Shown here piece after piece: positions 20,922 to 36,896 of a DNA stretch of 36,984 nucleotides. The stretch is from contig JAFOTA010000097.1 in assembly GCA_017421145.1 (NCBI GenBank), forward strand, positions 1 to 36,984, read 5' to 3'. The stretch comes from Treponema sp. GTDB lineage: Bacteria > Spirochaetota > Spirochaetia > Treponematales > Treponemataceae. Made by a program: the position numbers and the translations under genes. Position 1 is the stretch's first letter. The number at the start of each line of letters is the position of its first letter. The notes under the pieces are model-generated. The model was not told the origin of the DNA. It did no database searches and worked only from the letters and a program-made list of their open reading frames with translations.

Positions 20922-21887
20922 TTAAAAAATTATAAGTTGTCCTGTTGATTTTATCAAGTTTAAATCAATTATTTTTTTGAAATCATCAGGAATGGGGCAT
21001 TCCAAAATAGGCGGAAGACCAAGCGGATTTTCTTCCGGGAATTCAAGTTTCGCCGCATGCAGGTAAAAAGTGCTCCCATGACCGCCGTATGCATTGTCCC
21101 CCAAAAGCGGGTGTCCGTGAAAAGCTGACTGGCATCTTATCTGATGTTTTCTTCCTGTGTCTATGCGGTATTCCATGAGGGTTATGTCCAGGCCGTCCTT
21201 TTTTCCGTATGCGACCGGGCGGGCGTGCGTGACCGCTTTTTTCCCTAAATCTCCGTCTTGAACGACCTTCACCCTGTAGAATCCTGAAATGCTTTCACCG
21301 TCAGAAATAAAATCTTCCCATGACACGGATTTTTCAAGCTTACCCTCGGAAATCCCAAGGTAGGTCTTTTTTATGAGCTTGTCCTGAAGGGCTTCGGAAA
21401 ACCATTTTGCACCTGTAAGGCTCCTTGAAAATGCGACCATTCCGCTTGTGTTCCTGTCAATCCTGTGAAGGGGACCTGATCTGAACGAAATGGAATCTTC
21501 CGCACCGGAATTTTTTCCAGAAATGATTTCACAAAGGCTCGTTTCCCCCGATGATGAAGGCTGCACGCTGATTCCGCGCGGTTTGTACACGACAAGCACA
21601 TGCTCGTTCTCAAAGACAGTCCTTATTTCCGGAAGGCGGGCAAGATTTTTTTTTCTTCCTGCGCTTTCCACGGAATTTTTTTCCAAAAGAAAAGCCGCAA
21701 CGGAGATTACGTCTCCCTCGTGTACTTTTGAATCGGAAGATGCTTTTTTCTGGTTCAATCTTACAAGTTTTTTCCTTATAATTTCATGGCAGTTGATTTC
21801 CGGGCTTTTTTCCAGAATCCTTTTGACAATCCTGTCCAATCTGCGTGAATCATCGTCCCTGCCGGCCGTAAAATCCTTGAAATCCAT
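20922..21887 (-). CDS. RluA-family 23S rRNA/tRNA pseudouridine synthase
   Basis: This enzyme isomerises specific uridines to pseudouridine in RNA. The 321-aa product has an N-terminal S4-like domain (about 15-65, SRRLDRIVKRIL to HEGDVISV) and the RluA catalytic core. The catalytic aspartate is D144 in LHRIDRNTSGMVAF. YKPRGISVQPSS and TGRKHQIRCQSAFHGHPLLGD are further family motifs. The S4 domain points to the RluC/RluD subgroup, but the target uridines cannot be read from sequence. ATG 21887 has no Shine-Dalgarno and lies eight nt after a TATAAC box. It is divergent from the Rnf-like operon. Confidence 0.9.
   Translation of the reverse strand: MDFKDFTAGRDDDSRRLDRIVKRILEKSPEINCHEIIRKKLVRLNQKKASSDSKVHEGDVISVAAFLLEKNSVESAGRKKNLARLPEIRTVFENEHVLVVYKPRGISVQPSSSGETSLCEIISGKNSGAEDSISFRSGPLHRIDRNTSGMVAFSRSLTGAKWFSEALQDKLIKKTYLGISEGKLEKSVSWEDFISDGESISGFYRVKVVQDGDLGKKAVTHARPVAYGKKDGLDITLMEYRIDTGRKHQIRCQSAFHGHPLLGDNAYGGHGSTFYLHAAKLEFPEENPLGLPPILECPIPDDFKKIIDLNLIKSTGQLIIF
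20929..20957 (-). promoter_or_regulatory. Promoter of the P-loop/Asp23 gene inside the end of the upstream gene
   Basis: On the minus strand TTGATA (20957-20952), 17 nt and a perfect TATAAT (20934-20929) overlap the last codons of the RluA-type gene. Twelve nt separate the -10 box from ATG 20916, predicting a leader of only about five to six nt. Confidence 0.55.
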
Positions 21888-21895
21888 ACCATATA

Positions 21896-21925
21896 GTTAT
21901 ATAATACAAAAGTTACTGTAGTCTA
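21896..21925 (-). promoter_or_regulatory. Promoter of the RluA-type gene, placed for a near-leaderless mRNA
   Basis: On the minus strand TAGACT (21925-21920), an 18-nt spacer and TATAAC (21901-21896) lie eight nt before ATG 21887. The -35 match is moderate. Confidence 0.4.
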
Positions 21926-22001: not shown

Positions 22002-22484
22002 ATGGATAATACGAAAGAACAGATAATCTCTTTTATCAGGAATCCTGTGCTATTGTCTTGCATTTTCAGCTGGTTGTCGGCTCAGTTCATAAAAACGCTC
22101 ATAAACCTTTTTTCCGGTAAAATCCACAGCGTGCAGGAGCTTTTCGAGCTGCTCATCTGGAGAACGGGCGGAATGCCTTCAAGCCACTCTGCACTGGTGG
22201 CCACGCTTTGCACGACCATAGCGTTCCGTTCAGGAATCAACAGCGACGTTTTCCTGCTTTCATTGGGATTTTTCATGGTGACGATCCGTGATGCGGTGGG
22301 TGTAAGGCGCGCCAACGGAATTCAGGCAAAAATCATAAACAAGATAGGCCGCTCTTTGGCTGAAAAAAAGCTCATAGATGATTTCAAGCCGGTCAAGGAA
22401 GTCAACGGGCATACTCCTGCGGAAGTAGCGATAGGATGCCTCATTGGATTTTTCATAGGCCTGGCTTTTTCTCTGTTCAAATGA
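22002..22484 (+). CDS. DUF212 / divergent PAP2-family membrane protein
   Basis: This 160-aa integral membrane protein has the DUF212 (divergent PAP2) signatures: GGMPSSHSALVATL at about 56-69, TIRDAVGVRRANGIQA in the middle and VNGHTPAEVAIGCLIGF near the end. The SSHS and GHTP histidines match the phosphatase-type active site of PAP2 enzymes, so a lipid-phosphate phosphatase role is possible. No substrate is known for this branch. There are about four membrane segments. It is the first gene of an eight-gene operon, 28 nt before the next gene. The start is probably leaderless: the -10 box ends six nt before the ATG and there is no ribosome binding site at the right distance. Confidence 0.85.
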   Translation: MDNTKEQIISFIRNPVLLSCIFSWLSAQFIKTLINLFSGKIHSVQELFELLIWRTGGMPSSHSALVATLCTTIAFRSGINSDVFLLSLGFFMVTIRDAVGVRRANGIQAKIINKIGRSLAEKKLIDDFKPVKEVNGHTPAEVAIGCLIGFFIGLAFSLFK

Positions 22485-22512
22485 GCTTTGCTTACATTAA
22501 AAATGTGGTGGG

Positions 22513-23928
22513 ATGATGAAATATAAATTCAGGCTGTTTCTATCAGTAATAGTTTTCCTCGTTTTTTTGCTCTGCTGTTTTGTGTTCAGGAGCATGCCGG
22601 TCGCAAAGATTTGGAGCAACTACAGCGTAATGTATACGGACAATTCCGTTCCTGAAGCTACGGTTCTTTTCTATCTTGAACAAGCCGGATGCCGCGACGT
22701 TATTTCGCTTTCAGGACAGAAAATGCCGCCCCTTTCGCAGTTCGTCATGCCGGAATCAATCGACGGCACATATCTTACGGAACGCCTCGGTTATTTCAGG
22801 GATGAAAGTTCATCTTACCAGCTGTTCTACATCCCGGAGCAGTATCAGGAAAAAGCAAAGTCAGCTGCGGTCGCGCTTATAAAAGGAACTGGTGCAGAAG
22901 CTGGCCTTGACGGACATGAGCAGTATCCTTGGCTTGTGCCTCTGATCAGCGTGGTGACATACCTTCTGCTTACTCTTGCATCAAAAAAGAAGGGCGTGTT
23001 CATGTTCTCCGCAATACTTCCGCTCGGCGTGGCTCTTTCACAGCCTTTCTACACGGTTGCCGCAGCAGTGTGCCTTTCTTTGGTCGCAATCTACCTCATA
23101 AACGGACTTTGGATACGAAGAAAATTCTTCACGGCCGTTTTCAGAAGCTTCTATATAGACATACTCATAGCGGCTTCGCTTGCAATTCCGTTCACTTCGT
23201 CGCTTACTGCAGGACTTCTCGGAGCGGGGGCATTTTTTGCCGTCTTCATGGCATTCATATTCCTCAAGGCACTGCATGAATACAGGGAATACAGAAGCTC
23301 GTTCTCGTTCGTTCCCATTTTTTCCGCATGGCAGATTCCGGTCATGTACAGAAAGACTGCAGGCTATGTGCTTGGTTCGGTGATTCCGCTGGCCGCACTG
23401 CTTGTTCTTTTCCTTGCTTCCACGCTCGTCACAACCACGTCTTCAATGTCGGGGCTTTCGGTTCCGTCGCCTGTTCTGTACGGGCAGAAATCCAACGGAA
23501 AAAAGCTTCCAGATGAAAATTCGTATTTTTCATGGGTTTGGAAAACAAGGGCATATCCGTACAAATCCCTGAACGACAAATCTGAGATAAAGGATCCTCA
23601 GGACGGTGACAAAATCGTTTCAAGCCACTTTACGGAAACATCACGCGGAATCGTAAAGTCGGAGGACATAATCTATACATACAACTCGAAATTCAGGGAC
23701 AAGCTCAAAAGTGAAGTCAGGAATTTTGATTACAACGCAATCGAAAAGCTGATGGTATTGCAGGACGAAAGCACGACGGTTTCCTATAACACGGGAATTG
23801 AAAGCAAGTCCGATTCCCAGCATAATACAATGAACATGTTCTTGCTTTTCATAGCAATAGCTGTTCCCATAATTCTATATGGAGTCTATTTTGGTTTTGG
23901 TCGGAAGAAAAATGAAAACAGTAAGTAA
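22513..23928 (+). CDS. Unknown multi-pass membrane protein of the Rnf-like operon
   Basis: I do not recognise this 471-aa protein. It has one N-terminal membrane segment (about 7-27) and an extracytoplasmic-looking domain of about 110 residues. A cluster of membrane segments follows from about 140 to 252, then one at about 283-304, a second soluble region (about 305-440) and a last segment (about 443-464) ending in a basic FGRKKNENSK. GGTGGG at 22507-22512 sits just before ATG 22513 and a second in-frame ATG at 22516, either of which may be used. Its end overlaps rnfC by 17 nt, so it is translationally tied to the Rnf-like genes and may be an accessory subunit. Confidence 0.75.
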   Translation: MMKYKFRLFLSVIVFLVFLLCCFVFRSMPVAKIWSNYSVMYTDNSVPEATVLFYLEQAGCRDVISLSGQKMPPLSQFVMPESIDGTYLTERLGYFRDESSSYQLFYIPEQYQEKAKSAAVALIKGTGAEAGLDGHEQYPWLVPLISVVTYLLLTLASKKKGVFMFSAILPLGVALSQPFYTVAAAVCLSLVAIYLINGLWIRRKFFTAVFRSFYIDILIAASLAIPFTSSLTAGLLGAGAFFAVFMAFIFLKALHEYREYRSSFSFVPIFSAWQIPVMYRKTAGYVLGSVIPLAALLVLFLASTLVTTTSSMSGLSVPSPVLYGQKSNGKKLPDENSYFSWVWKTRAYPYKSLNDKSEIKDPQDGDKIVSSHFTETSRGIVKSEDIIYTYNSKFRDKLKSEVRNFDYNAIEKLMVLQDESTTVSYNTGIESKSDSQHNTMNMFLLFIAIAVPIILYGVYFGFGRKKNENSK

Positions 23929-25219
23929 CATAACCCGTGACAAAAAATACAATTTTACGAATTCCGTAAGAGCTTTTTTGCCGCGTCATGCACTTGTCCC
24001 CCTGAACAAAGAAGGTGAGGACAACTTCACGTGCATAGTGAACCCAGGTGACAGCGTAACGGAAGGACAGATCGTCGGATTTTACATGGATGATGAGTCC
24101 GGAAAAAAGATTTATGTCCATGCATCGCTTCCTGGAAAAATCGAATCTTTCGAACAGTGCGGATTCCCGGACGGAAAAAAAGGCTCGGCATTGAAAATCC
24201 GTGTGGAAGGCTCCTTTTCTTTTTTGGGAAAGCTCGTTCAGGCCAACGAATGGCAGTGGAACAATGCGGAACAGATTCTTGCGGCTATATCAGAAAAAGG
24301 CGTCAGAAACACATTCGGAAAACCGGAAGACCTTGCCGTGCAGATTTCAAACTGCAAAGTGCAGAAGGGAAGGTTCCTGGTAATAAGGATGTTCGATGAT
24401 GACCCAAGCTACGAAACAGATACTTTCGTTGCAAAAAAGCATACGAAGGAAATTCTTGAAGGCGCACATATAGTTTCTCATGCTTTGAAAGCCAAGGGAA
24501 TCGTATTTGCGCTTCCGCAGAAAAGCCCGGTCGAAATCAGTGCCGATGAATTCGGCACGCTTCCTGTGTTCAAGATTGCAATGGATGACACGCGCTATCC
24601 CACTGGATTCGTACAGAATATCGTGCATGCGGTAAAAAAAGCGCAGAAAACTCAGGAGCAGGAATTGTTCGATTCAATAAGCCAGTTCGGTCTGTTCATC
24701 GATCCTGAAACCCTGTATTCTGTTTATGAAGCCGTCGTTCTCGGAAAACCGGTCGTGGAATCTTTCGTGCATGTTACGGGAAACTGCCTAAGGTCTTCGG
24801 CATTGCTCAGGGTCAGGATTGGTACTACGGTCAGAAGCCTCATGGAGCAGTGCGGCGGATGTGACAGGGCGCTCGGAAAAATAATCGTGAACGGAGTTGT
24901 GACCGGAGACTGCGTGGAATCGCTTGACACTATAATCACAAAAGACGTGAAGTCCGTGTCTTTCGTTCCAAAAAGCGAGCTTTCTGACCAAGAGAGGAAT
25001 CCATGCATAAGGTGCGGAAAATGCAGGAGCATCTGCCCGGAAGGAATTTTCCCGGATCTGATTTACAGGCACTGCAACGGCGGAAAAAAAATCGGGCGCG
25101 AAATGCTTTCAACTACGGCGTTGTGCTCAGGATGCTGCCTCTGCAATTCGGTCTGTCCGTCAAGGCTCCCGTTATGCCAGACAATCGATAATTTAAGGAA
25201 TGCTGAAAATGAAATTTAA
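23912..25219 (+). CDS. rnfC: RnfC-like iron-sulphur subunit, atypical
   Basis: In bona fide Rnf complexes RnfC is the peripheral subunit that takes electrons from or gives them to NADH. This 435-aa protein keeps the N-terminal barrel (NPGDSVTEGQIVGFYM, HASLPGKIES), the soluble linker block GTTVRSLMEQCGG and two complete 4Fe-4S motifs: C365/C368/C371/C375 and C405/C408/C411/C415, the latter followed by the family's PSRLPL. The nucleotide/flavin region is atypical. The glycine-rich GGAGFPT loop is replaced around 130-138 by GVRNTFGKP, and the ECEP-type acidic block by FDDDPSYETD (161-170). GGAAG before ATG 23912 supports that start over the in-frame ATG at 23879. It overlaps both neighbours. 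Confidence 0.82.
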   Translation: MKTVSNITRDKKYNFTNSVRAFLPRHALVPLNKEGEDNFTCIVNPGDSVTEGQIVGFYMDDESGKKIYVHASLPGKIESFEQCGFPDGKKGSALKIRVEGSFSFLGKLVQANEWQWNNAEQILAAISEKGVRNTFGKPEDLAVQISNCKVQKGRFLVIRMFDDDPSYETDTFVAKKHTKEILEGAHIVSHALKAKGIVFALPQKSPVEISADEFGTLPVFKIAMDDTRYPTGFVQNIVHAVKKAQKTQEQELFDSISQFGLFIDPETLYSVYEAVVLGKPVVESFVHVTGNCLRSSALLRVRIGTTVRSLMEQCGGCDRALGKIIVNGVVTGDCVESLDTIITKDVKSVSFVPKSELSDQERNPCIRCGKCRSICPEGIFPDLIYRHCNGGKKIGREMLSTTALCSGCCLCNSVCPSRLPLCQTIDNLRNAENEI

Positions 25220-26294
25220 CGAAATATTCAAAAAGCCGCAGAAAGCAGAATCTCTAAGACCGTTCTCATATCTTACGATGTCTGTTGGAACTGTGAGGAA
25301 ATTCATCCTCGTGATGATGGTGCCGCAGCTGATCATGCTTGCAATCACAAAATCATATGCGTCGCTTCTCATAGTGCTTTCATCTGCCGTTGCGTCCATG
25401 CTTTCGGAAATGGTGTTCTGCCTTTTATCAAAAAAGAAAATGGAATACCTTTCACCGCTCATTCAGGGAATCCTTACCGGACTTCTGATTCCTTCGGCAT
25501 ATTCAATAGTAGAAATCTTCTTCGTCGTTTTTGTCTCGATGTTCCTCGGAAAATATGTTTTCGGTGGGTTCGCCCGCTCATGGATAAACACTGTTGCACT
25601 TTCCGTTGCAATTGCATACATGCTGAACGTGCAGGCATTTTCAACGGTGGCAATCGGACCTGAATTCCTTTCAAATAGAAATGCGGCCCTTTCGTACATA
25701 CAAAGCCCGGATTTCCACATACTGAGCGCAGACTATGCCATAACCTCGTTCCTTAACAGGACTGTATTCAAGATCTTCGGAATCGTCATACCGGACGGAT
25801 ATATTTCGTTCTTCTGGGATACAGGCTTCCAGATTCCGGCATTCAGGTTCAATTTCATAACGCTTTTGTCATCTATCGTGCTGATGGCGCTTGACGTGAT
25901 CGACATGGTGGTTCCTTTCGTTTTTACGGCAGTCTACCTTCTTCTGGTACGCTTCGTATGTCCTATATTCACCGGTGCACCTGCATTCCAGGGCGACATG
26001 ATTTTTGCGCTTTTCACGAGCGGAACGCTTTTTTCAACCCTCTATCTTTTGCAGTGGTACGGAACGGTTCCTATAACGAAATCAGGTAAGCTCATATACG
26101 CTTCTCTTGCAGGACTTGTCGCATTCCTTGTAATGGGATACGGAAATTCTTCCGCCGGATATGTGTTCATGATTCTTATAATGAACCTTTTGTCAACGCT
26201 CGTGCAGATTTTTGAAAGCCGCATGGCAAGAAAGAAAATACAGTCAGTTCTCAATCCGAGAATCCAGGCAATAAAGGAGGCCGAAAATGTCTGA
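25209..26294 (+). CDS. rnfD: RnfD-like membrane subunit lacking the FMN attachment motif
   Basis: RnfD is a membrane subunit that in characterised complexes carries FMN bound covalently to a threonine in an SGAT motif. This 361-aa product clearly has the fold: ASMLSEMVFCLLSKKK, LIQGILTGLLIPSA, GKYVFGGFARSWINTVALSV and, near the end, GDMIFALFTSGTLFS and VPITKSGKLIYASLAG. I find no SGAT/SGAS-like motif between the conserved blocks, and the usual ATDPVTSP is LQWYGTVP here. About nine membrane segments are present. AAGGA at 25195-25199 supports ATG 25209; an earlier ATG at 25200 has no spacing from it. It overlaps rnfC by 11 nt and the next gene by 8 nt. Confidence 0.82.
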   Translation: MKFNEIFKKPQKAESLRPFSYLTMSVGTVRKFILVMMVPQLIMLAITKSYASLLIVLSSAVASMLSEMVFCLLSKKKMEYLSPLIQGILTGLLIPSAYSIVEIFFVVFVSMFLGKYVFGGFARSWINTVALSVAIAYMLNVQAFSTVAIGPEFLSNRNAALSYIQSPDFHILSADYAITSFLNRTVFKIFGIVIPDGYISFFWDTGFQIPAFRFNFITLLSSIVLMALDVIDMVVPFVFTAVYLLLVRFVCPIFTGAPAFQGDMIFALFTSGTLFSTLYLLQWYGTVPITKSGKLIYASLAGLVAFLVMGYGNSSAGYVFMILIMNLLSTLVQIFESRMARKKIQSVLNPRIQAIKEAENV

Positions 26295-26805
26295 TCAGAT
26301 TCAGGACGAAGAGCGCATGCAATCAGCCGAGCTGAACAAAACACGGCTCATAAAATTTGCGACTGCAGGGGGAGTGATACTTGTTCTTCTTGGTCTTCTC
26401 TTCCTTTTTGTTTTTTTGAGCAGGCAGTCATGGAAAGACGGCATTTCAAGGCAGATAGAAAATGTCCTTTCGAAAAACGGGCTTGAATATGAAATTGCAG
26501 AAGCAGATTCAATCAGGAGCATGGCAGGCACCAACGTAGTTTCATTCGCACTTTCAGACGGCGTGAATCATGCTGCGGCCGTTAAGATGATGACGATCTA
26601 TGGTCCTGTACCGGCAGTATTCATTTACAACGCGGAAAATGACAGGGCATCTTTCGTTGATTTTGCCGAACCGCTTTCAATCGCCGGGGATGCAGTACTT
26701 GACTATGCAAAAAATTCACAGATACCGTACTGGGAAAACAGGATACCCAAAATCATGAAGACGGCAGGAGATCCGCACGCATCTTTCAAGGAGGAGACGA
26801 AATGA
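26287..26805 (+). CDS. Small membrane-anchored protein in the RnfG position
   Basis: This 172-aa protein has one N-terminal membrane segment (about 24-46) and an extracytoplasmic domain, the topology of RnfG. It lies where rnfG lies in rnfCDGEAB operons. Sequence similarity to RnfG is not convincing, and the SGATxTS motif that holds covalent FMN in RnfG is absent; the C-terminal half ends with SIAGDAVLDYAKNSQ and a Lys-rich tail. It is either a strongly diverged RnfG or a replacement. AAGGAGG at 26274-26280 is a strong ribosome binding site for ATG 26287. It overlaps rnfD by 8 nt and rnfE by 4 nt (ATGA). Confidence 0.7.
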   Translation: MSDQIQDEERMQSAELNKTRLIKFATAGGVILVLLGLLFLFVFLSRQSWKDGISRQIENVLSKNGLEYEIAEADSIRSMAGTNVVSFALSDGVNHAAAVKMMTIYGPVPAVFIYNAENDRASFVDFAEPLSIAGDAVLDYAKNSQIPYWENRIPKIMKTAGDPHASFKEETK

Positions 26806-27731
26806 ACAAAAACATATTCATGTTTCTTTCGGTGGCCCTTATCATGCTGATTCCGGTACCGGGCAGATTCGCATACGCATTGGTCATGATTGCGGAGCTT
26901 TTGTTCCTTGTACTTCTTGGAACGGCTTCAAAATCATTGCTTTCAAAGCTCAAGATAGAAGACTTGCAGCACGTGATGATTCCGGTCATATTGATGGCGG
27001 CGTCCGTTTTCTTCAAGCAGCTCGTAACGCTCATAAGCCCGATGACGGCATTCGTACTCGGATACATAATTTATCTTCCGGCTGTATGTGCATACGTTCT
27101 TGGAATCCTTTCAGAAAAAAGGACTGCATCTCTTTCTTCTGACATAAAGAGAAACCTGGGCACTACGCTTTCCATTTCACTTCCTATAATCATCGTTTTC
27201 CTTGTGCGTGACCTGCTCGGATACGGTACTTTGACTCTTCCTTCACCCAACGGAATCTTTGCCATAACCATAATCCCGAAGATCAAGGACGTTCATCTTT
27301 TCACGGTTTTCTTTGCATCAATACCAGGTTCTTTTGTTTCTCTCGCCGCATGTACGTTCATAATCAACAAGTTCGGCCTGAAATGGAACATGAGAAAATC
27401 GCTCAAGGAAGAAGAATCAATCAAAAAAACGGAAGAATCTCCTGCACCATACGAAGTTCCTGCTGCAAAACCGCTTGCAGAAAAGCCTGCTGAACCAACG
27501 TTGGAGACAATTCCTGAGCCTAAGGATGAAAAGCCTTTGCAAGCAATACAGGAAACGACGATAGAAACGGTCAAAGAAAATGAACCGGCTTCCATCTTGG
27601 AAAATCCGTTCGATACCGATGCTTCGCAAACCGCCGCTTCTTCAGAAAACAGAACCGGGACAACCGTTCCGCCTGATGCACCCAGCCTGCTGAATCTTCA
27701 AAAACTACTGGAGGAAACGGATGTTGATTAA
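26802..27731 (+). CDS. rnfE: RnfE-like membrane subunit with long acidic C-terminal tail
   Basis: The first 200 residues are the six-segment RnfA/RnfE fold, recognised by FIPL-like strands before CAYVLG and by VRDLLGYGTLTLPSP, which corresponds to the family's IRE-x-GxGTL block. In the paired RnfA/RnfE (NqrE/NqrD) subunits, two cysteines each hold an iron centre in the membrane. Here the first is replaced (A12 at the usual GLCP site), and the nearest to the second is C96, one residue off the usual NC position. Residues about 205-309 form a Pro/Glu/Lys-rich tail (EESPAPYEVPAAKPLAEKPA) not usual in RnfE, probably cytoplasmic and flexible. GGAGGAG precedes ATG 26802. It overlaps rnfA by 11 nt. 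Confidence 0.8.
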   Translation: MNKNIFMFLSVALIMLIPVPGRFAYALVMIAELLFLVLLGTASKSLLSKLKIEDLQHVMIPVILMAASVFFKQLVTLISPMTAFVLGYIIYLPAVCAYVLGILSEKRTASLSSDIKRNLGTTLSISLPIIIVFLVRDLLGYGTLTLPSPNGIFAITIIPKIKDVHLFTVFFASIPGSFVSLAACTFIINKFGLKWNMRKSLKEEESIKKTEESPAPYEVPAAKPLAEKPAEPTLETIPEPKDEKPLQAIQETTIETVKENEPASILENPFDTDASQTAASSENRTGTTVPPDAPSLLNLQKLLEETDVD

Positions 27732-28272
27732 TTTCTTTTATTATGTTTTCTTTAGCTCGGCCGTATTCGTCTATGGTCTGGGTATTCATAAAGCGCTGAT
27801 GAAAAGCCGGAAACCGAGGAACATAGTCATGGAGCTGTGCAAATTCACGCTCACGATTTCCGTTTCATCGCTTCTGGTATATCTCATAAGCGCGCAGCTC
27901 GTAAAAATAAATTTCGGTGAGCTAAGCCCGTTCATTGCAGTGCTGATCATTTCATTCATCAACCTGTTCCTGGAGCTTGTCGTAAAGATTTCCAGCCGCA
28001 CGTCGATGGTTGATTCTGCATTCGAAATAATGTGCGTGGTCATTGCAGTCACGGAAGCCGCATCAATCTGGGAAGCTCTTTTGAATTCCCTGTTCTGCAT
28101 GGCTTCATATTTTATATGCATTCCGTTCTTCTACAGCTTGCGTAAACGGATTGAGATGAATGCACCGACGAAGAATGCAAGGAATCTTTCGCTCCTTTTC
28201 GTGAGCCTTGCAGTCGTTTCCCTTATTGCCCTTGCATGGAACATTTCATGGCTTAATCCGGGCAGGATTTAA
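27721..28272 (+). CDS. rnfA: RnfA-like membrane subunit lacking both conserved cysteines
   Basis: This 183-aa, six-segment protein aligns over its length with RnfA. VFVYGLGIHKAL matches the family's VLVxGLGICPFLG, and TEAASIWEALLN matches TNCAVLGVALLN. FFYSLRKRIEMN matches the family's AGIRERLE. At the two positions where RnfA/NqrE has the iron-binding cysteines, this protein has H23 and A113. The fold is therefore retained but the usual membrane iron-sulphur centre cannot form from this half. GGAGG in the end of rnfE precedes ATG 27721. No rnfB follows; the next gene, seven nt on, is a GH57-like protein. Confidence 0.8.
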   Translation: MLINFFYYVFFSSAVFVYGLGIHKALMKSRKPRNIVMELCKFTLTISVSSLLVYLISAQLVKINFGELSPFIAVLIISFINLFLELVVKISSRTSMVDSAFEIMCVVIAVTEAASIWEALLNSLFCMASYFICIPFFYSLRKRIEMNAPTKNARNLSLLFVSLAVVSLIALAWNISWLNPGRI

Positions 28273-28279
28273 ACTGAGT

Positions 28280-30097
28280 ATGGCGGTCTGCTTTCATTTG
28301 GATTTGAATTATTTGGATTCCTCAGACAAGACGGAGCTGGACAAAGCTTATCAGAACGGCTTGAAAAAGCTGCTCAAAGTCCTTTATTCTATGCCTGATT
28401 TTTGTCTTTCGATTTCAATTCCGGGAATCGTGATGGAATACTATTCAGAAAAATTTCCGGAAGCACTTGAACTTTTGAAAGAGCTTTCAGACCGCTCGCA
28501 GATTGAAATTCTCGGAGGGGGATTTTTCGTTCCAATACTTCCGCTTTTGCTTCCATCAGACAGAAGCGGCCAGATAGAAAAAATGACTTCATTTCTCCGA
28601 GGAACAATAGGAAAAAGACCGAGGGGAATATCCCTTTTTTCAAACGTGTGGGACAACTCCCTTATCCAGCCTTTGAAAGCATGCGGATTCGACTATCTTT
28701 TTCTTGATGACTCACTTGTACAGGCTTCAGATTCAGTTTATCCGCTTATTGCATCCGAATACGGAAAGAACATAAAGGTTCTTGTGACTCACCCGGCGCT
28801 TGCTCCTTCACAGGACGAGACCTTCGCTTCATGGAAAGAAAGGGCTGCCGCATTTGAAAAAAAATCTGCCGGATCACATGAAGCACTCACATGCATAAGC
28901 CTTGACATGGATGGTGCGCTGCGGCTTTCAGAAAAAAAATTCATTTCCGAACTTTTTTCTGCAGAAGAAAAAATCCGCGTTTTGCTTCCGATGCAGTACC
29001 TGAAAACATGCTGTTCATACGAAAGGGCATTCATTCCTTCCGGCATGAAAAAAATAGCTTCAGGAAAAAAATCATATTCATCCGTGCATGATTATCTTTT
29101 TGCAAACCCTCCGTCACTTCATTTGTATGAAAGGATGATTTACATAAACATGCTGATTTCACAATCACATGGAAAAGACAAGATGAGGAAAAAAGCTGCG
29201 CAGGAAAACCTTTGGGAAGCACAGTGCGGAAACTTCCTCATTTCTTCTTCTGATGAAAAATCTGCCGGTGCAAAAAGAAGGCAGTCTGCATACAAGCTTT
29301 TGAACGAAGCGGAAAAATGCCTGCACGAAAGCGGACAGTTCCTTGACGCACTCACTTCATTCGATTACAACAGCGACGGATTCAATGAATATGTTTTCCA
29401 GACGGAAAATTTCAATGCTGTAATCTCGCAGTCCGGCGGAAAGATTTCAGACCTGAACATGCTTTCCAACGGCGCAAACTATACTGACGCAAGCTTTTCA
29501 ATGCCATGTTCCGGAATGATGGTCGAAGGACTTTCAGAAAAAGAACCGGAAAAGGCCTCTCTTGCAGACGGAAGCCTGAGCTGGGCAGACGTGCTTTTTT
29601 CAGAAAAAAAATTCGATGCGAAAAGAAAAGACGTTTTCCTTGAATCAGAAAGCGTTTTTTCACAGCTGAAGATGCCGGTTTCCTTGGAGAAAAAAATCAG
29701 CATGTCACCGTCCGGGTTCATAGTCCAGTACATTCTCAAAAACCTAAGCCCGTTCCAGCTCAAAGGATATTTTTCCGTTTCAGCGTCCATCTCACAGACT
29801 GATTTCGTTAAAAAAGAAAACCAGTACGAGCTTGAGCTGATTCAGGACGGAAGCAGGATAAAGCCGCAGAAAGAAAAACTGTGCATGAAAAAAGGAGTTT
29901 CGATGCTCCAGATCACCGACAAGAGCGGAAAAATGACGATGCTTTTCGAACCGAACGAAGATGCCGGGTTCATCGCCGAAAACGAAAACAGGGCAGAGAC
30001 CATAAAATTCTACTGGCCCGTTGATCTTGCTTCAGGAAGGGCTATGGAAAAACGCGTTACGTTCATGCTCATCCCGTTCAAAAAAAACAGGCAGTAG
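28280..30097 (+). CDS. GH57-like protein (4-alpha-glucanotransferase type) lacking catalytic residues
   Basis: The 605-aa product follows the plan of GH57 4-alpha-glucanotransferases with their C-terminal DUF1925/DUF1926-type regions. Matches include SQIEILGGGFFVPILP (73-88), the barrel block RGISLFSNVWDNSL (115-128), GFDYLFLDD (136-144), a NPPSLHLYERM helix and the beta domain FDYNSDGFNEYVFQTENFN. Known GH57 enzymes have a nucleophile Glu in ERVWE-like motifs; here S121 stands there (FSNVWD). The HNHQP start is FHLDLN, the EMSEWSLP loop is GMKKIASG and the QCNDAYWHG block is QCGNFLISS. It is probably not a working transglycosylase. ATG 28280 lies 7 nt after rnfA; the frame is open further upstream into rnfA. 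It ends the operon. Confidence 0.75.
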   Translation: MAVCFHLDLNYLDSSDKTELDKAYQNGLKKLLKVLYSMPDFCLSISIPGIVMEYYSEKFPEALELLKELSDRSQIEILGGGFFVPILPLLLPSDRSGQIEKMTSFLRGTIGKRPRGISLFSNVWDNSLIQPLKACGFDYLFLDDSLVQASDSVYPLIASEYGKNIKVLVTHPALAPSQDETFASWKERAAAFEKKSAGSHEALTCISLDMDGALRLSEKKFISELFSAEEKIRVLLPMQYLKTCCSYERAFIPSGMKKIASGKKSYSSVHDYLFANPPSLHLYERMIYINMLISQSHGKDKMRKKAAQENLWEAQCGNFLISSSDEKSAGAKRRQSAYKLLNEAEKCLHESGQFLDALTSFDYNSDGFNEYVFQTENFNAVISQSGGKISDLNMLSNGANYTDASFSMPCSGMMVEGLSEKEPEKASLADGSLSWADVLFSEKKFDAKRKDVFLESESVFSQLKMPVSLEKKISMSPSGFIVQYILKNLSPFQLKGYFSVSASISQTDFVKKENQYELELIQDGSRIKPQKEKLCMKKGVSMLQITDKSGKMTMLFEPNEDAGFIAENENRAETIKFYWPVDLASGRAMEKRVTFMLIPFKKNRQ

Positions 30098-33746: not shown

Positions 33747-36700
33747 ATGACTATTGCACGAAAAGCAGCTTTGTACGTTCTGGGGGTATTCTTTGCTTCG
33801 TCCCATGCATTTTCTGCGGAAGTGGAAAATCTTACGGTTCAGAACACTTCGCTTTCGGAATACGTGTGCAGCGTATGGACGGCACAGGACGGACTTCCCG
33901 GAAACACCGTCACCGATCTGATTCAAGGAAAAAACGGCTACATCTACATCGGTACGTATGAAGGATTGGTACGCTTTGACGGAATAGAATTCAAGCTCAT
34001 AAACCACGTGCTTGACGAAAAATATGCATTCAGCTCCGCGCGCTCAATTTTTGAAGATTCAAAGAACAACATCTGGGTCGGTGCGAACGACGAAGGTGCA
34101 GTCTGCATCGGAAAAAACGGATTGACAAAAAGCTTCACCGTAAATGACGGGCTTCCAAACAATTCTGTACGTTCAATAACCGAAGACCGTGACGGAAACA
34201 TCTGGATAGGAACGGCAGGCGGCATCGCATACATAACCCCTTCAGGAATTATAAAAAGACCTTCAGGACTTGAAAAATTCGGAGCTTCGGAAATCACGGT
34301 GATACAGCTCTACTGCGACACGGCCGGAAGGATCTGGCTGACCAGTGCGGATGAAGGCGGTCTTTACTATTACAACAACGGAACGTTTGATCGCTACGCC
34401 AGCTTCGAGACGCTTGAAAACCCGGCGATACTCTGCGTGACACAGGACAAAAACGGAGGATTCTGGTTCGGTGCTTCACCGCATTATGCAATCTACAAAA
34501 ACGGAACCGAAGAATACCTCTATGATGTAGGCTCAGGTGATCAGCCCGGAACTGTGGTGAACGTAATCCGCGTTGACAAAGAGGGAGGTGTCTGGTTCGG
34601 ACGCGACACAGGAATCACCGTGTACAAGAACGGCCAGATGAAGACCTATGACAAGACCACGGAGCTTGCAAGCAACAATGCGAACACAATCCTTGAAGAT
34701 GCGGAAGGAAACATGTGGTTCGGAACAGACCGCGGAGGACTAAAAAAATTTTCTCCCGGAAAATTCAACACGATACAGATGGACACTTCCGTAAACGCAA
34801 TCTGCGACGACCCGAAAAAGAAAGTGGTGTGGCTCGGTGCGGACTCAGGTCTTTACTGCTATGACCCGGTATCAGGAACGTTCCAGGAAAACGCATTCAC
34901 GGAATATTGCAGGAACATACGAATAAGGCACGTGGGGCTTACTAAAGACGGATCCCTTCTCGTGAACACGTACGAAAAGCTCGGGCAGCTCCTCATGTCG
35001 GACAAATACGGAATAAAATCATGGAATGTAGAAAACGGTCTTTCAGGCGACAGGACAAGGGTTTCAATCCTCGCGGATGACGGAAAAATCTATTCAGGAA
35101 CGACGAACGGACTCAACATAATAGACCCGGCCGATGATTCGATCAGGATAATAAACAAGCAGTCCGGGATTCCGAACGAATACATCATGTGCATTTTCCA
35201 GGACAAGGACGGAACTGTTTGGTGCGGAACTGACGGCGGCGGAATCTTCTCTGTGATAAACGGGGAAATCGGTAAAATCTACAACAAAAACGACGGTCTT
35301 TCAGGCGACATAATCTTCAAGATACAGCAGCTTGAAAATACGGACGAGCTTTGGATTTCTACAGGAACAGGCATCTCATTGTTCAAGGACGGAAAATTCA
35401 CTTCAATCGGAACTTCAAACGGACTTGTGACCGACAGCGTATTCCAGATGATCTACGACACTACCGGCACTGTCTGGCTCACCGGAAACCTCGGTGTGTC
35501 ATCCGTAAGAAAAACCGATCTGGACAATTTGATAAACGGCAGTTCTGATTTCATAAACCTTAAGACATACGGACATTCGGACGGACTCATAACGAACGGC
35601 GTCACTTCAACGTCCCTTTCGATGCTTGACAACGTGGGAAGGACATGGTTCACGCTGACTGACGGATTTGCGGTCTATGATCCGTTCCGCGTAACCAACA
35701 AGGCGGTTCCTCCCGTTCAATTGGAAAGGTTCAGCCTTGAATCTGAAAACTACGAATATGAAGGGCAGACCGTAATTGTGGCTCCGAACGTAAAGCGCAT
35801 GAGCATAAAATACACGGGGCTTAGCTTCGTTTCGCCGGAACAGCTGCGTTTCAGGTACAAGCTTGAAGGGTTTGAAGACGATTATTCCGCCTGGTCAAAG
35901 TCTCGCGAAGTCTCATACACGAACCTAAAGCCTGGAACGTACAGATTCATGGTTCAGGTGCTCAATTCGGACGAGACGATCGGTGAAGTTTCCGAGCCTA
36001 TGATCGTCGTAAAGCAGCCTTACATCTGGCAGCTTTGGTGGTTCTGGGCTTTGATTGCGGTGTTCTTCCTCGGCATAGTTTTCCTTGCGGTGCTGACCAG
36101 ATACAACCAGATGAAAAGATACCAGAAAAAACTTGAAAACGAAGTGGAGGCACAGACAAAAGAACTGCACGAAAGGGCAATGGAGCTTCAGGAGCAGGCG
36201 GAAAAGCTTGCGGTCGCAAACCATGACCTCGAAAAAGCCAACCAGCAGACAGAACGCCTTTTGCTCAACATACTTCCGAAACAGATTGCAAAGGAGCTTA
36301 CGGAACGTCCGGGAGAAATCATAGCGAACCAGTTCACGAACGTTTCAGTCCTCTTTGCTGACATAGTCGGATTCACCAAGCTTTCGGACAGTCTTTCGGC
36401 AGAGGAAATCGTCATGATTCTGAACACGCTTTTCACAAAGTTCGACATGCTCGTAGGAAATTCAGGCATCGAAAAGATAAAGACGATCGGAGATGCATAC
36501 ATGGCTGCGGCAGGAGTTACCGGAGAAAGCTCCGATGAAAATTCAAAGAAAATGGTCAACCTTGCGCTCCAGTTCTTCGGTGAACTTGAAAATTTCAATG
36601 CTGCAAGCCCGATAAAGCTGCGCATGAGGATTGGAATCAACACAGGAAACCTCGTTGCCGGAGTCATTGGAAAGACAAAATTCATCTATGACATCTGGGG

Positions 36701-36896
36701 TGACACGGTGAACGTTGCAAGCCGCATGGAATCAACTGGAATTCCCGGAAAGATCCACGTAACGCAGAGCGTCTATGAAAACACGAAGCAGTATTTCAAA
36801 TACAGCGGTCCGGAAGAGCTTGAAGTGAAGGGAAAAGGAACCATGAAAACGTATTTTATCGATGCAATGCCGGAAAGTTTGCACGATGACGCATAG
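33747..36896 (+). CDS. Periplasmic-propeller sensor with class III adenylate cyclase domain
   Basis: This 1049-aa membrane protein should sense a periplasmic signal and make a cyclic nucleotide inside the cell. In order: a signal peptide (about 1-23), many two-component-regulator propeller repeats such as RSIFEDSKNNIWVGANDEG and TEDRDGNIWIGTAGG to about 640, a Y_Y_Y domain (about 654-757, LKPGTYRFMVQVLN), one membrane segment (about 760-785), a coiled coil (about 790-845) and a cyclase domain (about 860-1040). Metal ligands are D872 (FADIVGFT) and D916 (TIGDAYMA). K912 and D982 (YDIWGDTVN), with NVASRM, are the residues that select ATP, so adenylate cyclase is more likely than guanylate cyclase. 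GAGAGGG before ATG 33747 is the ribosome binding site. Confidence 0.93.
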   Translation: MTIARKAALYVLGVFFASSHAFSAEVENLTVQNTSLSEYVCSVWTAQDGLPGNTVTDLIQGKNGYIYIGTYEGLVRFDGIEFKLINHVLDEKYAFSSARSIFEDSKNNIWVGANDEGAVCIGKNGLTKSFTVNDGLPNNSVRSITEDRDGNIWIGTAGGIAYITPSGIIKRPSGLEKFGASEITVIQLYCDTAGRIWLTSADEGGLYYYNNGTFDRYASFETLENPAILCVTQDKNGGFWFGASPHYAIYKNGTEEYLYDVGSGDQPGTVVNVIRVDKEGGVWFGRDTGITVYKNGQMKTYDKTTELASNNANTILEDAEGNMWFGTDRGGLKKFSPGKFNTIQMDTSVNAICDDPKKKVVWLGADSGLYCYDPVSGTFQENAFTEYCRNIRIRHVGLTKDGSLLVNTYEKLGQLLMSDKYGIKSWNVENGLSGDRTRVSILADDGKIYSGTTNGLNIIDPADDSIRIINKQSGIPNEYIMCIFQDKDGTVWCGTDGGGIFSVINGEIGKIYNKNDGLSGDIIFKIQQLENTDELWISTGTGISLFKDGKFTSIGTSNGLVTDSVFQMIYDTTGTVWLTGNLGVSSVRKTDLDNLINGSSDFINLKTYGHSDGLITNGVTSTSLSMLDNVGRTWFTLTDGFAVYDPFRVTNKAVPPVQLERFSLESENYEYEGQTVIVAPNVKRMSIKYTGLSFVSPEQLRFRYKLEGFEDDYSAWSKSREVSYTNLKPGTYRFMVQVLNSDETIGEVSEPMIVVKQPYIWQLWWFWALIAVFFLGIVFLAVLTRYNQMKRYQKKLENEVEAQTKELHERAMELQEQAEKLAVANHDLEKANQQTERLLLNILPKQIAKELTERPGEIIANQFTNVSVLFADIVGFTKLSDSLSAEEIVMILNTLFTKFDMLVGNSGIEKIKTIGDAYMAAAGVTGESSDENSKKMVNLALQFFGELENFNAASPIKLRMRIGINTGNLVAGVIGKTKFIYDIWGDTVNVASRMESTGIPGKIHVTQSVYENTKQYFKYSGPEELEVKGKGTMKTYFIDAMPESLHDDA

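Follow-up and report, generated by a model that had tools for sequence, protein, structure and literature searches.

An Rnf-type operon of Treponema that appears to have lost its electron-path sites in steps and probably does a new job

Does an operon that keeps the rnf gene order and lacks most of the cofactor-binding sites of Rnf still encode an NADH:ferredoxin ion pump? The question is raised by positions 22,002 to 30,097 of contig JAFOTA010000097.1 from Treponema sp. (assembly GCA_017421145.1), whose analysed stretch of 36,984 nucleotides is called the window below. A first-pass annotation of the bare letters had described there an Rnf-type operon with intact frames and with cofactor sites lost across subunits C, D, G, E, and A, and this observation was confirmed. 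The gene order is DUF212-p471-rnfC-D-G-E-A-GH57, all frames are intact, and the C, D, G, E, and A subunits are homologous to those of Rnf and stand in rnf order, G having been assigned by its place and its fold (with a modest Z score) and E by a weak sequence match; a profile of G found no convincing match among PDB sequences. Comparison with other spirochaete loci shows, at the level of sequence, that the window operon is orthologous to a spirochaete Rnf operon with all its cofactor sites, those of the U-shaped electron path having since been lost in steps. The operon very probably encodes no NADH:ferredoxin ion pump, and in its stripped form it probably does a new job. Its parts are listed here with flavin mononucleotide abbreviated as FMN and amino acids as aa.

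22002..22484, + strand: DUF212, a divergent PAP2 family membrane protein of 160 aa (PF02681, 9.7e-39).
22513..23928, + strand: p471, a membrane protein without a Pfam family, with a hydrophobic N-terminus, a central membrane block, and a C-terminal hydrophobic segment.
23912..25219, + strand: RnfC homologue, both 4Fe-4S cysteine motifs present, FMN loop changed.
25200..26294, + strand: RnfD homologue, FMN threonine lost, GxIGE replaced by IPAFRFN.
26287..26805, + strand: RnfG homologue (172 aa), a stalk helix and a small domain, C-terminal SGAT flavinylation region missing.
26802..27731, + strand: RnfE homologue, [2Fe-2S] cysteines lost, C-terminal tail charged and proline-rich.
27721..28272, + strand: RnfA homologue, [2Fe-2S] cysteines lost.
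28273..28279, + strand: junction between rnfA and the GH57 gene, where rnfB is absent (54 of 97 related loci have rnfB in this position); its length assumes the ATG at 28280.
28280..30097, + strand: GH57-like protein, Ser at the nucleophile column (Glu in 1k1w, WLTERVW); the ATG at 28280 is the likelier start.

The listed open reading frame (ORF) of rnfC starts at 23879, and the ATG at 23912 was preferred for its better upstream sequence. The DUF212 protein scores 132.9 bits against the PF02681 family profile (cut-off 26.5), and the GH57-like protein is homologous to the GH57 catalytic domain (PF03065, 8.1e-19; 1k1w, 1.6e-20).

In the Rnf complex of A. woodii, as described in the excerpts available of PMC11889175, FMN is bound covalently to T156 of RnfD and T185 of RnfG, the membrane [2Fe-2S] cluster is held by C25 and C113 of RnfA together with C25 and C108 of RnfE, riboflavin lies near D249 and N123 of RnfD, and RnfC carries two [4Fe-4S] clusters and an FMN. 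These sites were compared across 102 aligned Treponemataceae loci, several of them on short contigs. In the first comparison, 4 to 7 normal sequences served as the reference for 99 sequences of C, 100 of D, 99 of E, and 97 of A; for the threonine of RnfD and the second cysteine of RnfA, the columns come from later, rechecked alignments. The RnfC loop GxGGAxFP, which serves FMN and NADH, is kept in 0 of 102 loci (two have gaps there) and gives way to an NTF-type motif, while NGxECEPY is replaced by R(L/M)FDxDPS. No SGAT-like flavinylation motif was found in any of the 101 RnfG ORFs, and the RnfD motif is absent in 101 of 102 loci, with one chance match in L128 (we number loci with L and genomes with G). 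The cysteine pair survives in 0 of 97 RnfA and in 1 of 101 RnfE sequences (L126). The window RnfD reads NRNAAL at the FMN threonine site; it has the riboflavin-site Asn, as do 92 of the 102 loci, and the matching Asp has become Trp in 76 of 102, the window included, Asp or Glu being present in 17. The columns of IPAFRF are conserved in 89, 95, 98, 98, 97, and 89 of 100 sequences, and I, A, F, R, and N of IPAFRFN are invariant across the 40 rows of alignment A1. The new conserved motifs at the flavin sites (NTF and R(L/M)FDxDPS in C, IPAFRFN in D) are thus unlike simple decay.

The loss of the FMN sites of D and G, the nucleotide loop of C, and the membrane cysteines of A and E, which had been claimed for the window, therefore extends to the 102 loci, one RnfE pair excepted. 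The broader claim that nearly every cofactor site is gone was right for the C loop and for D, G, E, and A, but it does not apply to the two [4Fe-4S] sites of RnfC, which are intact: the first cysteine motif is present in 102 of 102 loci and the second in 101 (the remaining locus has one undetermined letter), giving eight cysteines in 101. The literature searched yielded no mention of a loss of Rnf cofactor sites in Treponema. As a separate observation, the window RnfE tail (27480-27731) is charged and proline-rich, and the RnfE frames of L001-L004 are likewise long, at 308-386 aa versus a median of 211 aa over 100 loci.

A series of intermediates was found outside Treponemataceae, in 20 spirochaete loci (L146-L165) selected from weaker RnfD matches. 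Seven of these (L155, L156, L158-L161, and L164) are complete, having the RnfC loop, the RnfG motif, the cysteine pairs of E and of A, and a full RnfB, and in L155 and L161 p471 and GH57 are present in the same order (p471-C-D-G-E-A-B-GH57). L162 has kept the RnfD threonine and the RnfG motif and lost the RnfC loop and the E/A cysteines; in L163 and L153 the E/A columns still hold cysteines and RnfB is full-length, but the RnfC loop and the RnfG motif are gone; the RnfD threonine is kept in L153 and L154. The other nine degenerate loci (L146-L152, L157, and L165) are without the RnfC loop, the RnfG motif, and a complete E/A set. In a careful tree of 37 chosen rows, from which seven rows of a 44-row quick tree were left out (the long L118, L157, and L165 among them), the 25 degenerate rows lie on one side of a branch with support of 100/100, in agreement with the quick tree, and L161 and L155 are the complete rows nearest to the degenerate clade (join 93/92). 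With Ser at an acceptor site scored as present, the minimum number of changes on the tree is one each for the RnfC loop, the RnfG site, and GxIGE of RnfD, two for the RnfD threonine, and three each for the E/A cysteines and the N-terminal domain of RnfB. On this tree, the loss of the RnfC loop is common to the whole degenerate clade, and the other losses appear later, in an order that differs by lineage. In terms of sequence, the intermediate series shows common descent with the Rnf complex. That the atypical operon is a duplicate of the normal Treponema Rnf was rejected, because its RnfD insert is common to L161 and absent from normal Treponema RnfD; it groups with L161 and L155.

The first-pass annotation also had rnfB as absent. 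This is true of the window, but rnfB belongs to the ancestral operon and has been lost in the window clade, L001-L008. An RnfB-like gene of 178-232 aa with Fe-S (iron-sulfur) cysteine motifs follows rnfA, and precedes GH57 where the contig extends that far, in 54 of the 97 Treponemataceae loci with an rnfA ORF; RnfB is a stub in 9 more, absent in 23, and unclassified in 11. L118 was called a stub, probably wrongly in view of its overlapping A and GH57 frames, and the locus counts as lost either way. In the RnfB-like proteins inspected, the FeS domain that normal RnfB has at its N-terminus is missing. On the quick tree of the 102 loci, the 86 classified rows require at least 12 changes between full and lost RnfB. 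The stubs after rnfA in L013, L015, L017, L022, L037, and L065 keep a membrane helix and a C-terminal FxFWxKxY, the Fe-S part being deleted, which may mean that the two kept ends serve a separate purpose. Among seven genomes without normal Rnf (G003-G007, G042, and G068), a search for rnfB elsewhere gave no PF04060 match in five; the matches in G003 and G005 were rejected as RnfB, their frames of 651-656 aa being too long. Two observations concern the normal rnf operons. Those of the T. parvum and T. socranskii genomes (L138 after 10703; L139) end in an rnfB frame of about 100 aa that covers the N-terminal FeS domain and lacks the ferredoxin part, and that of L142 (G050) has no rnfB beside rnfA, an RnfB-like FeS gene (288 aa frame) lying elsewhere in the genome.

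The proposal that DUF212 and the 471-aa protein belong with the operon has held up, and GH57 can be added to them: among the 102 aligned loci, DUF212 is present in 92, p471 in 96, and GH57 in 92, beside 101 for G, 101 for E, and 97 for A. Outside Treponemataceae, DUF212 adjoins 13 of 13 degenerate loci versus 0 of 7 complete ones, as if it had joined when the first cofactor site was lost. p471 is also found in the cofactor-complete spirochaete operons L161 and L155; it has no convincing Pfam match, and among the matches listed in a search with it, all the named ones are from Treponema. For the GH57-like protein, the reference was 1k1w, a 4-alpha-glucanotransferase that we take to be from Thermococcus litoralis. 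Its nucleophile column holds Glu in only 6 of 103 rows (L133, L153, L154, L161, L162, and L163). The earlier statement that the window protein has lost its nucleophile is correct, a Ser standing there, but its inclusion in the same loss as the cofactor sites was rejected, as the nucleophile is also missing in the complete loci L155, L158-L160, and L164.

The atypical operon is widespread and constrained. Of 274 Treponemataceae genomes, a profile of the atypical RnfD matched 237 strongly (E < 1e-30) and 17 further ones only weakly, and gave no match at E 1e-15 in 20. The figure of 237, and the 60 of these without normal RnfD, were tallied by eye from tables, and the 37 genomes with a weak or no match stand outside the locus analysis. 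A genome scan with the atypical RnfD returned 182 places, the best 80 of which all belong to Treponema or wider spirochaete groups. The ratio of nonsynonymous to synonymous substitution rates (dN/dS) was computed by the Nei-Gojobori method for 15 pairs, and those with dS < 2 were kept, leaving 9 to 15 pairs per gene. The medians are 0.044 for DUF212, 0.088 for p471, 0.067 for C, 0.058 for D, 0.113 for G, 0.166 for E, 0.058 for A, and 0.087 for GH57; no single value exceeds 0.49 (G, L027 versus L028), and several pairs with the window are saturated in dS. The operon genes are under purifying selection, the membrane subunits and the [4Fe-4S] sites of RnfC included, and the values asked for by the first-pass annotation (medians 0.04-0.17) are not near 1.

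A normal Rnf subunit is encoded elsewhere in 46 of the 66 genomes tested (44 by RnfA/E, and those of L013 and L010 by RnfD only), so that the suggested pairing of a conserved, cofactor-poor operon with a normal rnf was indeed found. Normal RnfA/E occurs in 8 of the 8 genomes nearest to the window; the near-identical L023 was left out of the wider RnfA/E search. G216, the genome of L010, has a normal RnfD and no RnfA/E match, and G065 and G199, two of the 60 atypical-RnfD genomes without normal RnfD, do carry normal RnfA/E. The remaining 20 of the 66 gave no RnfA/E or RnfD match of the normal kind; many of these are incomplete assemblies, but the complete T. ruminis chromosome is among them. 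Retention of RnfB is not explained by the absence of normal Rnf, an idea that was rejected: genomes with and without normal Rnf number 17:7 for RnfB-less and 29:13 for RnfB-bearing loci (Fisher p 1.0). ApbE was found in 19 of 20 genomes tested. On the side of flavin-binding proteins, G002 (a T. socranskii genome) has 14 FMN_bind matches, mostly in frames of 580-760 aa, versus zero to six in each of ten others tested.

The syphilis bacterium, Treponema pallidum, is represented by genome G042, a single contig of 1,139,633 bases, in which only one RnfD was found, and this one is degenerate. Its operon reads GH57-A-E-G-D-C-DUF212, in which neither rnfB nor p471 was found, and the genome gave no match to PF02508 (RnfA/E) or PF04060 (RnfB). 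Two FMN_bind matches and one ApbE all lie away from the operon. The ApbE fragment is identical across 295 residues to PDB 4ifu, presumably T. pallidum Ftp. Position 174174, given for a tp0151 variant in the part of PMC7162541 available, lies within the G042 rnfD, which equates TP0151 with RnfD. A flavin-driven RNF, called noncanonical, has been proposed for T. pallidum (passages of PMC7512555 and PMC10194888). The only Rnf-like operon found in this genome is of the stripped type, against the role of a flavin ion pump as set out in those passages of PMC7512555.

Overall, the best explanation, to which we give moderate confidence, is a stepwise-stripped Rnf orthologue that is now a non-redox membrane assembly capped by the Fe-S protein RnfC. 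Rnf-type redox pumping is very unlikely because, without the FMN of C, D, and G and the [2Fe-2S] cluster, there is no recognised transmembrane electron route. By sequence, the RnfC FMN loop was lost first, by a single change shared by the whole degenerate clade, and DUF212 may have been recruited as this first site went; both flavin sites (G and D) and the [2Fe-2S] site of RnfA/E followed in differing order, and the Fe-S core of RnfB was lost many times over. What remains are parts for an assembly: the A/E/D/G core, the RnfC head with two [4Fe-4S] sites, p471, DUF212, and GH57. If the Fe-S part of RnfB is optional in a non-redox mode, its repeated loss would be explained. The core and the RnfC head likely still assemble as in Rnf. 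A more specific picture, in which a redox pump became a near-universal Treponema non-redox membrane machine with p471, the GH57-like protein, and DUF212 as partners and an envelope or transport function, mirroring the path from Rnf to NQR, is put forward tentatively. Somewhat more doubtful is the suggestion that the core is a non-redox conduit or scaffold for p471, DUF212, and GH57 in an envelope process, with RnfC as a structural or a redox- or iron-sensing Fe-S cap.

Several points weigh against a non-redox assembly. The Fe-S RnfB of 54 of 97 loci points to a redox role in those loci, and the envelope link is a best guess from gene neighbours and partner families alone. Ser replaces Thr at the acceptor site even in complete loci (RnfG of L159 and L161, RnfD of L158) and likewise in normal T. 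parvum RnfG. The RnfA cysteines of L153 and L163 stand in the right columns in altered surroundings, the ladder includes long branches, and RnfE and RnfG are recognised weakly. The riboflavin Asn and an Asp/Glu persist in all 13 degenerate loci outside Treponemataceae, and riboflavin may remain in RnfD where they do; other residues may also bind cofactors.

Four other explanations were weighed. Electrons might pass among soluble carriers or a partner on the cytoplasmic side through RnfC and, where present, RnfB, the membrane subunits being an anchor only. The RnfC Fe-S cysteines of 101 of 102 loci (with one undetermined letter in the other) and the RnfB of 54 of 97 fit such a relay, but C-D-G-E-A stayed in place through at least 12 changes that removed RnfB, a mere anchor would hardly account for dN/dS medians of 0.06-0.17 in p471, D, G, E, and A, and the distance from RnfC to RnfB is said to make direct electron transfer unlikely in A. 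woodii (excerpts of PMC11889175); we regard the relay as unlikely. That the operon is still a redox pump, with substitute cofactors or ligands such as a flavodoxin feeding the RnfC clusters and riboflavin in RnfD, strikes us as quite improbable. It would accord with the riboflavin-site Asn of 92 of 102 loci, with ApbE in 19 of 20 genomes, and with the T. pallidum proposals, which as published assume a flavin-driven RNF (passages of PMC7512555 and PMC10194888). However, besides the riboflavin pocket there is no recognised electron site between the membrane faces, and RnfG is without its entire flavinylation region. In 76 of 102 loci, the window among them, Trp stands in place of the riboflavin Asp; 46 of 66 genomes have a coexisting normal Rnf subunit, and the FMN_bind and ApbE genes of T. 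pallidum lie away from its operon.

This same coexistence, which includes all eight genomes nearest to the window, would be expected if the operon helped or regulated a normal Rnf complex in the same cell. Yet the operon occurs without a normal RnfA/E or RnfD match in 20 of 66 genomes (many incomplete, the complete T. ruminis included) and in T. pallidum, and RnfB loss is unassociated with normal Rnf (17:7 versus 29:13, Fisher p 1.0), which makes a helper very improbable. Least credible of all is a decaying relic or an artefact of poor alignment. G and E do evolve fast, several subunits fall below family cut-offs, and the RnfD threonine region aligns poorly in Treponemataceae; against this stand the dN/dS medians of 0.04-0.17, the presence in 237 of 274 genomes, the new conserved motifs, the retention of the operon in the 1.14 Mb T. 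pallidum genome, and the intermediates that bridge the alignment.

Two further features of the window lie outside the eight genes. The first is a consensus match only, in a region with 13 sigma-70-like matches versus 10.8 expected after shuffling.

21877..21905, + strand: candidate sigma-70-like promoter, upstream of the operon, with 11 of 12 consensus matches.
33747..36896: third gene downstream of the operon; its product of 1049 aa combines propeller repeats of the two-component-regulator type with a Y_Y_Y and an adenylate/guanylate cyclase domain.

If the stripped, non-redox reading is true, genes annotated as Rnf in hundreds of Treponema genomes encode no Rnf ion pump, and models of T. pallidum energy metabolism centred on a flavin-driven RNF need another ion-motive device. 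The living intermediates would show the piecewise dismantling of a multi-subunit redox machine with its assembly kept, and the ladder would show parts, namely the RnfC clusters and the A/E/D/G core, that may serve apart from electron transfer.

Set beside known systems, the window operon resembles the Rnf complex (A. woodii 9eri, C. tetanomorphum 7zc6, A. vinelandii 8ahx) in having C, D, G, E, and A in rnf order and the two 4Fe-4S motifs of RnfC. It differs in having lost the flavin sites of C, D, and G, the [2Fe-2S] cysteines of A/E, and RnfB, and in its extra partners p471, DUF212, and GH57. The complete operons L161 and L155, its nearest relatives in the tree, share C-D-G-E-A with p471 and GH57, and the L161 RnfD has the same periplasmic insert, but they have all cofactor sites and a full RnfB, and no adjoining DUF212 was found there. 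The proposed T. pallidum RNF belongs to the same degenerate family as the window operon but is very derived, p471 and rnfB not having been found in its operon. The GH57-like protein matches the 4-alpha-glucanotransferase 1k1w over the N-terminal catalytic part (E 1.6e-20) and differs from GH57 glycosidases in having Ser in place of the catalytic Glu nucleophile. The NqrF family (FAD, 2Fe-2S, NADH-oxidising) is not among the eight genes of the window operon, and no NqrF search was made elsewhere. According to the available parts of PMC4014512 and PMC12174285, Na+-NQR (NqrABCDEF) goes back to an rnf operon from which rnfB had been lost; it retains the membrane flavins and the [2Fe-2S] cluster, and its NqrA has lost the cofactors of RnfC. 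The loss of rnfB is thus common to both; for the rest, as far as those sources go, Na+-NQR is the mirror case, the window operon keeping the RnfC cluster sites and losing the membrane path.

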